IMG/VR virus record: IMGVR_UViG_3300013123_000041
Location: 1 to 22,419 of that record
Reading direction: 5' to 3' (one strand)
DNA: 22,419 bases
From: a virus
The notes under the pieces are model-generated. The model ran no database searches and was not told where the DNA came from. It saw nothing but the letters and a program-made list of their open reading frames with translations. Positions within the stretch are counted from its first letter, which is position 1; each line of letters starts with the position of its first letter. Of the stretch, positions 6,259 through 21,677 are shown in pieces. The position numbers were made by a program, and so were the translations under genes.

Positions 6259-6286
6259 TTGACTTTTTGTGCGGATATGCTATAAT
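6259..6286 (+). promoter_or_regulatory. Strong sigma70-type promoter with extended -10
   Basis: The -35 is TTGACT (6259-6264), the spacer is 16 bp and the -10 is TATAAT (6281-6286), preceded by TG plus one base (6278-6280, extended -10). Predicted transcription start is near 6293. It lies in noncoding DNA 13 bases after the structured element and reads into the lysozyme-like gene at 6351. The -35 and following bases match the promoter at 8320. Confidence 0.85.
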
Positions 6287-6292
6287 GGACGT

Positions 6293-6350
6293 AATGGTGG
6301 GGTGAGCCATAGGGTGAAACCGGGTGAACCTAAACATTAAAAATAAAAAA
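6293..6350 (+). promoter_or_regulatory. Leader with three GGGTGA repeats
   Basis: Between the predicted transcription start and the ATG at 6351 are three copies of GGGTGA (6300-6305, 6312-6317, 6322-6327), each followed within a few bases by CC, so each could form a tiny GGT/ACC hairpin. The rest is A-rich with no SD. The tandem arrangement suggests a protein-binding site in RNA or DNA; no binder is identified. Confidence 0.45.
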
Positions 6351-6897: not shown

Positions 6898-7092
6898 ATG
6901 GGAACAATTCAAATCACAATCCAAAAGACTGCAAAACAAGGCGTGCCGGAAATGGCAAAAACCTATAACACCGCTTTTGAGGGAAGTTTGAATGACTTGA
7001 AATCACTTCAAGAAGCCGTTGACACCGCAGTCGAGAAGATTCTTTGGAACAAATCAGGTAATAAGACTATTGAGGAAAAGCAGGCTGTTTAG
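6898..7092 (+). CDS. Small hypothetical protein
   Basis: Encodes 64 aa from ATG 6898; a second in-frame ATG at 6952 (MAKTYNTAFEGSLNDLKSLQ) would give 46 aa. It contains one probable helix with Leu/Ala heptads (DLKSLQEAVDTAVEKIL). The stop codon lies within the terminator hairpin that follows. There is no recognised family. Confidence 0.55.
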   Translation: MGTIQITIQKTAKQGVPEMAKTYNTAFEGSLNDLKSLQEAVDTAVEKILWNKSGNKTIEEKQAV

Positions 7093-7103
7093 CTTGCTTT
7101 TTT
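7078..7103 (+). terminator. Rho-independent terminator overlapping a gene end
   Basis: Stem AAGCAGGC (7078-7085) pairs with GCTTGCTT (7092-7099) with one G-U pair, around a six-base TGTTTA loop, and runs into six T (7098-7103). The stop codon TAG of the upstream gene sits at the loop/stem border. It would end transcripts started at the 6259 promoter, giving a short two-gene unit. Confidence 0.75.
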
Positions 7104-7109
7104 ATATCT

Positions 7110-7337
7110 ATGATTAGGATTCAAGAGATACAAACATATTATCGGCAGTTCAGCCAAGAGCCAGTCGAGCAGAATATCCCGAATTTCATTAAGTTTATCG
7201 AGGGCAAGCAAAAGAATATGCGCGGCAGGGTTATTAGTTGGGAAGCAAGGGAATCAGCGCGCAGGCTCAAAGAACTGGAAGCACGGCAGGCAGAGAATAA
7301 GCCAGTTGATCCGGAAGAAGATTTTGATAATTTATAA
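7110..7337 (+). CDS. Small hypothetical protein, charged
   Basis: Encodes 75 aa, mostly helical, with a basic middle (KQKNMRGRVISWEARESARRLKE) and an acidic C-terminus (DPEEDFDNL). It starts seven bases after the terminator T-run and has no SD. It lies 12 bases before the next gene, so the two are probably cotranscribed. No family is recognised. Confidence 0.6.
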   Translation: MIRIQEIQTYYRQFSQEPVEQNIPNFIKFIEGKQKNMRGRVISWEARESARRLKELEARQAENKPVDPEEDFDNL

Positions 7338-7349
7338 AATATTAAAAAT

Positions 7350-7745
7350 ATGGAGGAATTAGGAAAAGAGGTCGAGCTTCCAAAAGATAAAAGCACGAAG
7401 CTCACAAAAAAAGAGGAATTTGGCACGACGATCGCGCAGATACTCCTACGCAAAGAGAACCTAGAACCCTACGGCTTCAATGAATATCCTAAGCTCACAA
7501 TGGTAGTCGCCGAGGATAAAGAGAAGTTTCAAGAGGGTATAGTCCGGCTGGTTTTTGAGGAAAGCGAGGGCGTAGAACGCTCATATCTCGTCCATATGGA
7601 CTTATTCATCTCTATTTCACAGTCAGTTTATGCAAAAACGAACAGCGATATAGCCAAAAGAGAGTATAATAAGCGCAGAAATGCAAAGATTTGGGGATTT
7701 TTCAAGACATTGATGTATCGGGTGCAACATAAATTTCAAAAATAA
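7350..7745 (+). CDS. Hypothetical protein
   Basis: Encodes 131 aa. The N-terminus is Lys/Glu-rich (MEELGKEVELPKDKSTKLTKKEE), the middle looks like an alpha/beta domain (YPKLTMVVAEDKEKF, GIVRLVFEES, SYLVHMDLFISI), and the C-terminus is basic (REYNKRRNAKIW, RVQHKFQK). It starts in the ATGGAGG context with no upstream SD. It precedes the hairpin-rich gap. No function is recognised. Confidence 0.65.
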   Translation: MEELGKEVELPKDKSTKLTKKEEFGTTIAQILLRKENLEPYGFNEYPKLTMVVAEDKEKFQEGIVRLVFEESEGVERSYLVHMDLFISISQSVYAKTNSDIAKREYNKRRNAKIWGFFKTLMYRVQHKFQK

Positions 7746-7988
7746 GCGATTCTACCTCCAAGACAACTCCAATTATCGTTGGGTATGAGGATCATTTATT
7801 CAAGTGAGGAATAGTTCTGGGCTTCTCGGCAAGCCGGAAGTTCGGAAATCGTATTCTTATGGCAGGAGCGAACAAAAGCGCGCACATATGCGGCGATTGG
7901 GAGAAGAAAACGCCCTGCGAACAAGAACAGATAGTGTCTTGTCGCTTCTCCCATAAGGGTATAATAATTATTTAATATTAAAAATCGT
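7746..7988 (+). other. Hairpin-rich gap of 243 bases
   Basis: Three hairpins are visible. The first is CCTC (7755-7758) with GAGG (7787-7790), enclosing CCAA/TTGG (7769-7772/7779-7782). The second is CTTC plus CGG (7822-7829) with CCGGAAG (7834-7840) around CAAG. The third and largest is TGGGAGAA (7898-7905) with TTCTCCCA (7946-7953), continued by GCG and ACAAG (7917-7919, 7921-7925) with CTTGTCGC (7938-7945); its 3' arm is fully paired and its 5' arm has an internal bulge. A TATAAT at 7970-7975 has no matching -35. The gap could be a long leader or ncRNA; a short ORF at 7859 overlaps it. Confidence 0.5.
7859..7975 (+). CDS. Possible 38-aa Cys-containing ORF
   Basis: ATG 7859 opens a short frame beginning MAGANKSAHICGDWEKK, with three Cys in total (two more in the second half) and a hydrophobic IIII end. 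Cys spacing could suit a zinc site. It has no SD and overlaps the largest hairpin of the gap, so it may be a chance ORF. It is listed only because the local composition is coding-like. Confidence 0.25.
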   Translation: MAGANKSAHICGDWEKKTPCEQEQIVSCRFSHKGIIII

Positions 7989-8315
7989 ATGGGAGAGGAC
8001 ATCATCAAATGCCCTAACTGTGGAACAGAGGGTGCAGTCGGAACTAAGTGTTTCAACTGTGGAACAGAGATATTCGCCGAGGAATCGTCGAGTAATCAAG
8101 AGGAATCAACGACGACTGGCAATCCAGCAGAGCAAGAGGGTCAAACATTGACACCTAGCGAGCCGGAAACCGGAGAACAAGGCGAAGAAGTGAGTATTCC
8201 GGTAAGAGTTGAGGGAGAAGATCAGGGTCAAGACGCAGAAAGCGAGCCACAAAACACGCAAGAAGAAAGCAATCAGGGGCAAGATGAAGAAGTTTCAGCT
8301 CCAAAGGCAGATTAA
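7989..8315 (+). CDS. Zinc-ribbon protein with acidic disordered tail
   Basis: Encodes 108 aa. Residues 8-24 form a clear zinc ribbon: C8-PN-C11 and C21-FN-C24. From residue 30 on, the chain is low-complexity, rich in Glu, Gln, Ser and Gly, and should be disordered. Such proteins may act as tethers or partner-binding scaffolds; nothing more specific is visible. It starts right after the hairpin-rich gap with an A/T leader and no SD. The promoter at 8320 begins a few bases after its stop. Confidence 0.75.
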   Translation: MGEDIIKCPNCGTEGAVGTKCFNCGTEIFAEESSSNQEESTTTGNPAEQEGQTLTPSEPETGEQGEEVSIPVRVEGEDQGQDAESEPQNTQEESNQGQDEEVSAPKAD

Positions 8316-8319
8316 AAAT

Positions 8320-8348
8320 TTGACTTTTGTCTTGAAAAGGAGTATAAT
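8320..8348 (+). promoter_or_regulatory. Consensus sigma70-type promoter
   Basis: The -35 is TTGACT (8320-8325) and the -10 is TATAAT (8343-8348), separated by exactly 17 bp. Predicted start is about 8355. It shares TTGACTTTT and a following GT with the promoter at 6259. It lies immediately after the zinc-ribbon gene and opens an independent unit ending at the terminator at 8777. Confidence 0.88.
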
Positions 8349-8354
8349 TGTATG

Positions 8355-8613
8355 TGAGAGTGCAGAAGTTTTACAATCAATGCGGAGCGACTATCGCTGA
8401 TGAGTTCTACTCACGAATCAACGGAACTACGCTCTTGCGCTCGTAAGTATCATATCCGAGCAAACGACCTAGCGAGCGATTGGGAGTTGGGAGATCATAT
8501 CAAGCAATAACCCCGGAGCATATCTAGGAGAGTAGCGCCGGGAGGGTTAAAGGGCAGGATAAGTCCTCCTCCCGGTGGACATAATGAAAAATAATTATTA
8601 AAAAATAAGAAGT
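8355..8613 (+). ncRNA. Long structured leader or small RNA
   Basis: About 260 bases follow the 8320 promoter before a plausible ATG. Two tight adjacent hairpins occur: AGCGA/TCGCT (8386-8398) and TGAGT/ACTCA (8401-8413), each with a three-base loop. GCTCG/CGAGC pairs around 8439-8461. A stronger element is CGCCGGGAGG (8536-8545) with CCTCCCGGTG (8568-8577), containing AGGA/TCCT (8556-8567) inside. CCCGG at 8512-8516 could instead pair with CCGGG at 8538-8542, giving an alternative fold. Two short ORFs (8354-8446 from GTG, 8400-8510 from ATG) overlap each other and lack SD sites. I read this as a regulatory leader or ncRNA, with a pac-like site as an alternative. Confidence 0.5.
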
Positions 8614-8745
8614 ATGGTGTTGAGAATCACGAAACTTCCCTCAGAGATGTTCAGCGCTTCAATCCGAAGCAACGACTATTTCTACGGAGGAGTTGCCAAG
8701 TATCTCACGATCGGGGAAATCTTGGAAGTAGCCGCGCTTCAATAG
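8614..8745 (+). CDS. Small ORF (43 aa) in its own transcription unit
   Basis: ATG 8614 opens a frame of 43 codons whose product begins MVLRITKLPSEMFSA, has NDYFYGGVAKYL in the middle and ends IGEILEVAALQ. The mixed composition looks coding. The start has the same A/T-rich leader (TTATTAAAAAATAAG) as the confident genes of this genome. It is the only ORF with a convincing start between the promoter at 8320 and the terminator at 8777. I recognise no family. It could be a small regulator, a packaging factor or a leader-controlled peptide. Confidence 0.6.
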   Translation: MVLRITKLPSEMFSASIRSNDYFYGGVAKYLTIGEILEVAALQ

Positions 8746-8776
8746 CGGTAAATAGAATCGAATATTAAAGAATAAG

Positions 8777-8834
8777 AAAGGAATAACAATTATTTGTGGG
8801 CAGAGCGCAAGCCCGGAAAAGTTATTCCTTTTTT
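8777..8834 (+). terminator. Strong rho-independent terminator before terS
   Basis: AAAGGAATAAC (8777-8787) pairs perfectly with GTTATTCCTTT (8821-8831), and the T-run extends to 8834. The 33-base loop contains a second stem, GGGC (8798-8801) with GCCC (8811-8814). It separates the 43-codon unit from the terminase gene 11 bases downstream, so terS must be reached by read-through, antitermination or a promoter I cannot see. Confidence 0.85.
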
Positions 8835-8844
8835 GTATGCAAAT

Positions 8845-9321
8845 ATGGCTAAGCTAAAAAAGAAGATAAGCAAGAAAACTGAAAAGAAAGAGGAGCAAGG
8901 GTTAAAGCAGTCTTGGCTTAACTTCATAGACGCGTATATCGAATGTGGTAATGCTACCGAGGCTTATATGCAAGCGTATCCCGGTTGCACAAGAAAGACG
9001 GCAGGGGCGAATAGCCACGTTCTACTGAAAAACACTGAAATTCTGCAAGAATTAAACTACCGCTATCGTTCGCAGAAAATCACTGAATCAGGAATTGCGG
9101 CTGAATTATGGGAAATTGGCACGAAATACCGAGGCGCTAAGACCATTAACGCGGCTGTAAATGCGCTGAAAACGCTGGCACAGACGAAAGGTATGCTCGT
9201 TGATACTAGAAAAGTTGAATTTACGGGTAAGAATCCGGCAGTATTCTTAGCTCCGTATAGCGCAGAGGAAAAAGCAGAGTTCGACAAGATCAGAGATACT
9301 AAGCAAAGGATAGTAGAATGA
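8845..9321 (+). CDS. terS: Terminase small subunit
   Basis: Encodes 158 aa from the ATG at 8845; an in-frame TTG at 8794 lies inside the terminator loop and is rejected. After a Lys-rich N-terminus, residues about 25-75 match the terminase small-subunit helix-turn-helix region (WLNFIDAYIECGNATEAYMQ, then AYPGCTRKTAGANSHVLLK), which resembles the N-A-T-x-A-x-x-x-A-G-Y pattern of the family. It recognises phage DNA at the pac or cos site and hands it to TerL. The stop overlaps the terL start (ATGA), supporting the pairing. The C-terminus is probably an oligomerisation and TerL-contact region. Confidence 0.9.
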   Translation: MAKLKKKISKKTEKKEEQGLKQSWLNFIDAYIECGNATEAYMQAYPGCTRKTAGANSHVLLKNTEILQELNYRYRSQKITESGIAAELWEIGTKYRGAKTINAAVNALKTLAQTKGMLVDTRKVEFTGKNPAVFLAPYSAEEKAEFDKIRDTKQRIVE

Positions 9322-19557: not shown

Positions 19558-20118
19558 ATGGCAGACCCAGTAAAAAACTTCGTTAAAGTCAATGTTTCTA
19601 CCGGATATGACGATACCGCCACGTCCGTAGTTTTGGCGACTGGACACGGAGCTAAACTGCCCGACCCTGCTACGCTTGGAGCTTTCGATATTGTTTGGTG
19701 GAATTTCACCGATTATCCCGATCCGTCGGACGACACGAATGTTGAAATAGTGAGAGTAACCGCCAAAAGCGGAGATACCTTGACAATTACGAGAGCGCAA
19801 CAAAGCACGGCGGCAACAACGAAAAATGCTGGTGGAAAAACCTACAAGATGATTCTTACGCCAACAGCAAAGACCATATCGGACATTTTGGCTCTAATAG
19901 CCAATTTGACTGCGGTAAAAATAGGAGAAGCTCCTACCGGAGATATAGACAGTTCAAACGACACATTCACGCTTTCAAATTCTCCGATAGAATTAGCTCT
20001 GTATCTCAATGGGCAACGACTGACTGTGAGCGATGATTATTCCATAAGCGACGATACAATAACAATGAGCATACCACCTTTCACGGGAGATGTGCTTCTA
20101 GCTGATTACACCTACTAA
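19558..20118 (+). CDS. Tail fibre/adhesion-associated protein
   Basis: Encodes 186 aa. The N-terminus (MADPVKNFVKVNVSTGYDD) and TSVVLATGHGAKLPDPATLG look like a repeated adhesion-protein fold; residues 60-100 hold VEIVRVTAKSGDTLTITRAQ. The C-terminal domain FTLSNSPIELALYLNGQRLT, then YSISDDTITMSIPPF, resembles a small beta domain common in phage fibres. It overlaps the next start by one base (TAATG), linking its translation to the fibre triplet. Role in host attachment is inferred. Confidence 0.75.
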   Translation: MADPVKNFVKVNVSTGYDDTATSVVLATGHGAKLPDPATLGAFDIVWWNFTDYPDPSDDTNVEIVRVTAKSGDTLTITRAQQSTAATTKNAGGKTYKMILTPTAKTISDILALIANLTAVKIGEAPTGDIDSSNDTFTLSNSPIELALYLNGQRLTVSDDYSISDDTITMSIPPFTGDVLLADYTY

Positions 20119-20630
20119 TGACAAAATTAAGAAAAGAACAATTCAAAGATATTCTGCAAACCTTGCACCCGGTAGGTTCTATTTACTTCTCTACCCTATC
20201 AACAAATCCGGCTACACTTCTCGGTTTTGGAACTTGGACAGCGTGGGCGGCTGGGAAAACACCTGTCGGAGTAGATAGCGGAGATGCTAATCTTGACGCG
20301 GCAGAAGATACATATGGAGCAAAAACAGTTACGCTGGTAGAAGCAAACCTGCCTACTCATCTTCATACTGTAAATCCACCCTCGACGGAATCATCAGATC
20401 AATCAGTAACTCATAATCATACGCAGAGCTACCGAAGTTCAAGCGGCAATTCCGGTTCGGGTGGAACTAAGTGGGGCAATACTTCTTCTCAAACATCGGG
20501 TAATAATTCAGTTTCCCATACTCATACGCTTGATATTGCGGAATTTAATTCGGGAAGTTACGGAGGTGACGGAGCGCATAATAATATCCAACCTAGTATT
20601 GTCGCTTATATGTGGAAGCGAACAGCATAA
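20118..20630 (+). CDS. Collar/fibre-tip protein, copy 1 of 3
   Basis: Encodes 170 aa. LHPVGSIYFSTLSTNPATLL, FGTWTAWAAGKTPVGVDSGD, then LPTHLHTVNPP and THNHTQSY, and the end HTHTLDIAEFNSG, AHNNIQPSIVAYMWKRTA. The pattern P-x-G-S-I-Y, FG-x-G-x-W, two His-rich HxH motifs and a C-terminal HNN-x-Q-P closure is typical of phage tail-collar or short-fibre tips (T4 gp12-like), whose HxH sites bind metal in a trimer. Its neighbours at 20635 and 21150 are paralogues. It probably touches the host surface. Confidence 0.85.
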   Translation: MTKLRKEQFKDILQTLHPVGSIYFSTLSTNPATLLGFGTWTAWAAGKTPVGVDSGDANLDAAEDTYGAKTVTLVEANLPTHLHTVNPPSTESSDQSVTHNHTQSYRSSSGNSGSGGTKWGNTSSQTSGNNSVSHTHTLDIAEFNSGSYGGDGAHNNIQPSIVAYMWKRTA

Positions 20631-20634
20631 AAAT

Positions 20635-21150
20635 ATGGCTACAAAAATACGAAAAGAACAGACCTCAATAATGCAAGCGCTTTATCCGGTAGGAAAGGTT
20701 TATGTTTCTATAACATCAACAAATCCGGCTACATTGTTCGGATTTGGCACTTGGGAAGCATTCGGCGCTGGCAGGGTTATGGTGTGTTTGAATAGTGGAG
20801 ATACTGATTTTGATACATTAGGAGAAACAGGGGGAGAAAAAACTCACGTTTTGACTGAATCTGAAATTACAGCTCATTCGCATAAAGTAAATCCGCCACA
20901 AACAACCTCGTCGGGACAGTCAGCAACGCATACTCATACTTATTACACTAAAAGCGGAACAGGAAATACTGCCTCAAATAATGTTCCAAACTGGAAAGGA
21001 ACAACCACAATTAATATGGGAAATGCAAGCGCAGGGCATACTCACACTTTTGACATAGCCGAGTTTAACTCAGGAAATGTAGGAAGCGGAACGGCTCATA
21101 ATAATATGCAACCCTCGATAGCAGTTTATCTATTTAAGAGAACGGCATAA
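20635..21150 (+). CDS. Collar/fibre-tip protein, copy 2 of 3
   Basis: Encodes 171 aa from ATG 20635; the in-frame sequence upstream lies inside copy 1. It shares with copy 1 LYPVGKVYVSITSTNPATLF, FGTWEAFGAGRVMVCLNSGD, ITAHSHKVNPP, ATHTHTYYTK, HTHTFDIAEFNSG and the closing AHNNMQPSIAVYLFKRTA. The middle segment (KSGTGNTASNNVPNWKGTTT) differs from the other copies in sequence and length, as expected for a binding surface. It overlaps copy 3 by TAATG. Confidence 0.85.
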   Translation: MATKIRKEQTSIMQALYPVGKVYVSITSTNPATLFGFGTWEAFGAGRVMVCLNSGDTDFDTLGETGGEKTHVLTESEITAHSHKVNPPQTTSSGQSATHTHTYYTKSGTGNTASNNVPNWKGTTTINMGNASAGHTHTFDIAEFNSGNVGSGTAHNNMQPSIAVYLFKRTA

Positions 21151-21677
21151 TGGCTACATTACTACGAAAAGAACAAACGGAACTTTTGGAGATAGAATAT
21201 CCTATCGGTTGTTTGTATATCTCGACAGTTTCAACTGATCCGGCAGATTTGTTCGGATTTGGCACTTGGTCGCTTTTCGGTTCGGGGAGGATAATGGTCG
21301 GAATTGATAGCGGCGACACAGATTTTGATACTGCCGAGGAAACACGCGGAACTAAAACTCATACGCTAGTTGAAGCAGAAATTCCGGCACATTTGCACAC
21401 GGTAAATCCACCCTCGACAACTTCCGGAAATAATTCCGCTACGCATACTCATACCTACACTAGATATAGCACTGTTACGCATAATAAATCTGGAAGCGCG
21501 CAACCAGCGTGTTGGACTGGAAATCCAGGTTCATCGGTTAATTCCGGGAATGCATCACAAGATCACACCCACACAGTTGATATAGCAGAATTTGATTCAG
21601 GAAATGCAGGTTCGGGAGGAGCGCATAATAATTTACAGCCATACGTAGTCGTTTGCGTATGGAAAAGAACAGCCTAA
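21150..21677 (+). CDS. Collar/fibre-tip protein, copy 3 of 3
   Basis: Encodes 175 aa. Again YPIGCLYISTVSTDPADLFG, FGTWSLFGSGRIMVGIDSGD, IPAHLHTVNPP, ATHTHTYTRY, HTHTVDIAEFDSG and the end AHNNLQPYVVVCVWKRTA. The variable middle is longest here and has Ser/Gly/Trp (KSGSAQPACWTGNPGSSVN). The three tandem copies may encode alternative tips or subunits of one mixed fibre. It is followed at 21679 by the repeat protein. Confidence 0.85.
   Translation: MATLLRKEQTELLEIEYPIGCLYISTVSTDPADLFGFGTWSLFGSGRIMVGIDSGDTDFDTAEETRGTKTHTLVEAEIPAHLHTVNPPSTTSGNNSATHTHTYTRYSTVTHNKSGSAQPACWTGNPGSSVNSGNASQDHTHTVDIAEFDSGNAGSGGAHNNLQPYVVVCVWKRTA

Follow-up and report, generated by a model that had tools for sequence, protein, structure and literature searches.

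We found that positions 8320-8834 of the window, a virus contig of 22,419 bp (IMGVR_UViG_3300013123_000041, classed as a fragment) analysed over its whole length, rather probably form the leader of the late operon, which encodes packaging and structural proteins, and that this leader would carry interchangeable small genes. According to this reading, RNA polymerase would initiate at a sigma70-type promoter (P8320), transcribe the leader and then a small cargo ORF, and meet an intrinsic terminator (T2) directly before terS. A fraction of the polymerases, or polymerases that a phage or RNA factor has modified late in infection, would pass T2, and this read-through would allow transcription of terS, terL and the portal, capsid and tail genes. 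We infer the activity of the promoter and of the terminator, the dependence of the late genes on read-through and the regulation of the latter from the sequence. The elements concerned are the following:

8320-8348, + strand: predicted sigma70-type promoter P8320, TTGACT-N17-TATAAT, 11 of 12 consensus positions, predicted start near 8355
8355-8613, + strand: putative leader of the late transcript, untranslated and with little structure as a whole
8537-8576, + strand: stable hairpin using the CCGGGAGG arm, the only solid local structure of the leader
8614-8745, + strand: 43-codon ORF, MVLRITKLPSEMFSASIRSNDYFYGGVAKYLTIGEILEVAALQ, probably translated, as judged by codon score and start context
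8776-8834, + strand: predicted intrinsic terminator T2, with a 12-bp stem, a nested G+C hairpin and T6 (fold z -6.1)
8845-9321, + strand: terS (PF03592 Terminase_2, E 1.5e-9; phrog_51), the first gene past T2
from 9318, + strand: terL, downstream of terS
from 10795, + strand: portal-like protein, named via the annotated portal of MW202566
from 14140, + strand: major capsid protein, in the downstream late region

The initial annotation had described a promoter with a 17-bp spacer and a strong terminator at the two ends of this region, and both descriptions hold. A promoter of the quality of P8320 occurs within 1.1 kb 5' of terS in 1.7% of shuffles. All the genes judged real in the window lie on the + strand, where just four sites reach at least 10 of the 12 consensus positions (4954, 5664, 6259 and 8320). 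The pattern TTGACTTTT-N-TATAMT is found twice only in the window, at P8320 and at a second promoter of the same class:

6259-6286, + strand: predicted promoter P6259, TTGACT-16-TATAAT, which would start the preceding unit

Among the relatives, the same pattern lies 5' of terS in L005, L006, L008 and L007 and is found once more in L008, at 1087, as the counterpart of P6259; other equivalents of P6259 are located in L030 (4038) and L014 (599). The reversed TTGACTTTT..TATAMT pattern, used as a control, gave no matches in virus records, its sole match being in a large MAG. Strong TTGACA or TTTACA promoters occupy the position of P8320 in L030, L014 and L013; L009 and L037 have weak promoters (9-10 of 12). 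Overall, a P8320-type promoter precedes the pre-terS terminator in at least five groups (the window, L003/L014, L005/L006/L008, L007 and L013).

T2 consists of a 12-bp basal stem (GAAAGGAATAAC/GTTATTCCTTTT) with an inner G+C hairpin and a T6 tail, and none of 200 shuffles reached its stem score. It is partly palindromic and possibly bidirectional. Since a generic scan for a stem plus T run did not discriminate on the window alone, we used a positional comparison across relatives. About ten related lineages were collected by terminase and portal searches (a search with TerS alone yielded no relatives), and the sequence 5' of terS was read in each. With one representative per lineage, and the relatives being few fragments, several of them nearly identical, a stem followed by a T run lies just 5' of terS in seven of nine lineages vs 5 of 102 other ORF starts (Fisher P about 8e-7; 1.5e-5 without L013). 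The hairpins sit 4-42 nt upstream of terS, the distance from stem end to start codon being 12 nt in the window, 12-16 nt in L003/L014, 42 nt in L008/L005, 26 nt in L009, 13 nt in L007 and L013, and 8 nt in L035, whose terminator has no clear promoter adjoining it. L037 also has a pre-terS stem and T run, its terS being masked, and the terminator of L006 lies farther 5' of terS owing to an insertion of about 200 nt. This insertion (L006 720-915, between terminator and terS) is richer in G+C and absent in the near-identical L005 and L008. A T2-like terminator was not found in the sequence 5' of terS in L033 and L036/L011. The stem sequences are wholly different between lineages, so that what is kept is position and form, not letters. 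Three of the five terminators found before other ORFs correspond to a second element:

7076-7103, + strand: predicted terminator T1, directly 5' of the gene at 7110, in the layout of T2 and terS

The position of T1 is kept before the orthologue of the 7110 gene in L030 and L008 and is readable in L035 near 5938.

The terminator had been thought to insulate the terminase operon. The start codon of terS lies 10 nt past the end of the T run of T2, and the sigma70 consensus scan, to which promoters of other sigma factors or of a phage RNA polymerase are invisible, detected no + strand site of at least 10/12 in the 14 kb of late genes past 8348; in the same scan, L030 likewise has no such site in its late part past its own promoter. 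Hence, terS would be transcribed through T2 or from an unrecognised promoter, and T2 is probably no insulator. Most likely, terS and the structural genes would depend on T2 read-through, which could be a leak or regulated antitermination.

A possible explanation, although a doubtful one in its full form, is that T1 and T2 are plain leaky terminators of moderate strength that determine how abundant upstream transcripts are relative to downstream ones, with no dedicated antitermination. In this sense, T1 shares the layout of T2 before the 7110 gene, which makes the pattern not specific to the late operon, and terminators whose role is unknown also lie within operons of phages such as phage L (PMC8022706). 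The negative search for the PF06530 Q family also favours a plain leak. However, the T2 hairpin is strong and carries a T6 tail, and its position is kept despite the complete divergence of its sequence, suggesting selection beyond random leak. Leaky termination does not conflict with the late-leader part of our preferred explanation.

The layout is known in kind from the pR'-tR' region of lambda, where the early/middle region ends in a promoter, followed by a short leader, an intrinsic terminator and the late genes; for this phage group we did not find it described in the literature searched. By sequence, the window presents the same succession of promoter, terminator and late operon, the sigma70 scan showing no further promoter for the late genes, and the SSB-like, NinB/Orf-like and Holliday junction resolvase genes upstream recall the nin region. 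The search with PF06530, which represents one Q type, returned no matches in 9 records (fragments), and Q is known in several types unrelated in sequence (PMC8022706). The window differs from lambda in this lack of a PF06530 match and in the presence of small ORFs between promoter and terminator and of terS directly after the terminator. In staphylococcal phages, RinA activates a late promoter upstream of terS (PMC9867676). The control of the late operon just 5' of terS would be common to both, whereas activation takes place at a repeat region there and a strong consensus promoter with a terminator is found here.

The leader had been described as structured and able to fold in two exclusive ways. 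The hairpin at 8537-8576 is solid, but the leader as a whole is barely above shuffles (z -1.4 for 8354-8613 and -0.6 for 8355-8600). Both folds of the CCGGGAGG arm exist and are very unequal: downstream pairing reaches -25.8 kcal/mol vs -14.2 for upstream pairing with 8511-8515, with equilibrium probabilities of 0.91 and 0.001, respectively. The upstream form, 11.6 kcal/mol weaker, could persist only up to the transcription of about nucleotide 8574 and is therefore transient at most, so the case for riboswitch-like alternation in the window leader is weak. No Rfam family matched the region at gathering score; Plastid-psbA-4 and STnc250, obtained with relaxed thresholds, are weak and unconvincing, and both fall on the terminator hairpin. 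Leader sequences are not conserved between lineages, and alignment of the window leader with that of L003 did not establish homology. In the equivalent slot, the L003/L014 leader shows strong structure (z -5.1 to -6.0). At 4782-4922 of L035, a consensus promoter is followed immediately by a long and very stable hairpin (z -6.8), after which come an AU-rich stretch and a start codon.

The putRNA of phage HK022 is a structured cis-acting antitermination RNA near the transcript start, 5' of terminators, with two stems in about 70 nt, and it modifies RNA polymerase (PMC9378689). A put-like RNA in this group is conceivable because the leaders of L003/L014 and L035 are very stable; in contrast to put, the window leader has little structure and leader sequences vary between lineages. 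We consider it unlikely that the leader RNA (as in L003, L014 and L035) or a neighbouring small protein provides processive antitermination specific to Patescibacteria phages at T1 and T2. The small proteins that would come into question are the 43-aa product, a conserved 131-aa protein and a zinc-ribbon protein, the last two being encoded upstream of the leader:

7350-7745, + strand: conserved gene of unknown function, 131-aa product (alignment A7, 23-34% identity)
7989-8315 in the window, and at 4821 in L003, 2086 in L011 and 161 in L033: tiny zinc-ribbon proteins (CxxCG...CxNCG)

The 7350 gene lies 5' of the late leader in most of the relatives that reach that far. Its place shortly before the late promoter is roughly that of Q in lambdoid phages, and by position only its product is a candidate late regulator. 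The model of the protein has low confidence (pLDDT 60) and no fold match. The zinc-ribbon proteins recur close 5' of terS and have a basic tail in the relatives.

The interval between promoter and terminator appears to be a slot that gains and loses small genes. Its content is as follows:

Window: 43-aa ORF
L003: 28-aa membrane ORF
L014: 60-aa ORF and 30-aa membrane ORF
L007: 56-aa ORF
L013: 44-codon membrane ORF initiated at TTG
L008/L005/L006 and L037: no ORF, with a gap of about 50 nt between promoter and terminator

The most instructive comparison is that of L003 and L014, whose flanks are about 97-98% identical: a cassette of about 200 nt with the 60-codon ORF is present in L014 and absent from L003, and promoter, leader and terminator are nearly identical in both despite this difference. 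In the window, the 43-codon ORF announced in the initial annotation is well supported. Its codon score exceeds that of 112 of 113 shadow ORFs (taken inside known genes); among real coding segments it ranks at the 26th percentile, within the range of real genes, and its AU-rich start context outscores all 332 background ATGs; taken together, these two lines of evidence make it very probably a gene, which would be translated. The 43-aa product has no match in PHROGs or Pfam and thus no detectable homologue there. Two other frames, an open one with GTG start (8354-8446) and one at 8358-8507, were not called genes, their codon support being below that of real genes and neither having a usable start context.

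The region had also been regarded as an independent unit. It could in that case resemble the morons of tailed phages, in which a promoter, a small gene and a terminator sit between operons and the cargo is variable; the product would act on the host or in defence or anti-defence, and terS would be transcribed from elsewhere. The anatomy fits, the 43-codon ORF is probably coding and the cargo varies among relatives. However, promoter and terminator do not travel with the gene as those of a moron: they persist in the cargo-less L008, L005 and L006, and in L037 with a weaker promoter. In addition, the L014 ORF was gained or lost between promoter and terminator with neither of them moved, and the sigma70 scan revealed no other strong promoter for the late genes. 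A moron-like cassette is in our opinion quite improbable; the 43-aa peptide taken by itself may have a moron-like or anti-defence role. Packaging sites are common directly 5' of terS, and the inverted repeat adjoins terS upstream, but a cos or pac site in place of the terminator is very improbable given the T tract 3' of the stem in nearly all relatives, the unrelated stem sequences and the equivalent structure T1 before an unrelated gene.

How phages that infect uncultured Patescibacteria regulate their genes is hardly described, and the late-leader reading gives a testable map: a pair of promoters belonging to one class, a pair of terminators each placed directly 5' of a gene start, and, at the entry of the late operon, a slot in which small genes come and go between a promoter and a terminator that are kept. 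As a practical rule, it points to where fast-changing small accessory ORFs can be sought in this phage group. A host among the tiny Patescibacteria is probable, as suggested by the TM7 phage DolZOral124_53_65, which is among the few matches of the capsid and portal proteins in a phage collection search, and by gene start contexts that are AU-rich and without Shine-Dalgarno sites. The sole related contig from a cellular genome belongs to a Caldithrix MAG and may be mis-binned. A DNA similarity search of annotated phages with the region gave no match, and nothing beyond chance repeats the region elsewhere in the contig.

Upstream, the window encodes the proteins that resemble the nin region, together with a GH25 lysozyme; the first of them was named from reading of the sequence:

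from 838, + strand: putative SSB-like ORF, in the upstream region

The region at 8320-8834 had been considered the sole interruption of the gene run, which does not hold: a non-coding stretch of 243 nt at 7746-7988 also interrupts it and is more strongly structured (z -3.2 to -3.7). This stretch has a counterpart in L003/L014, and in both lineages its 3' arm CTTCTCCC can pair with either a distant upstream arm or a nested GGGAGAAG. A leader motif, GGGTGA(A/G)CCTAAACA, is common to the window (6293-6345) and L035 (5117-5140) and sits in these two distant lineages just 5' of a transmembrane gene. Finally, three successive similar ORFs at 20118-21677 of the window (LRKEQ...YPVG.IY.S..STNPA.LFGFGTW) are apparent tandem paralogues of a tail-type protein.
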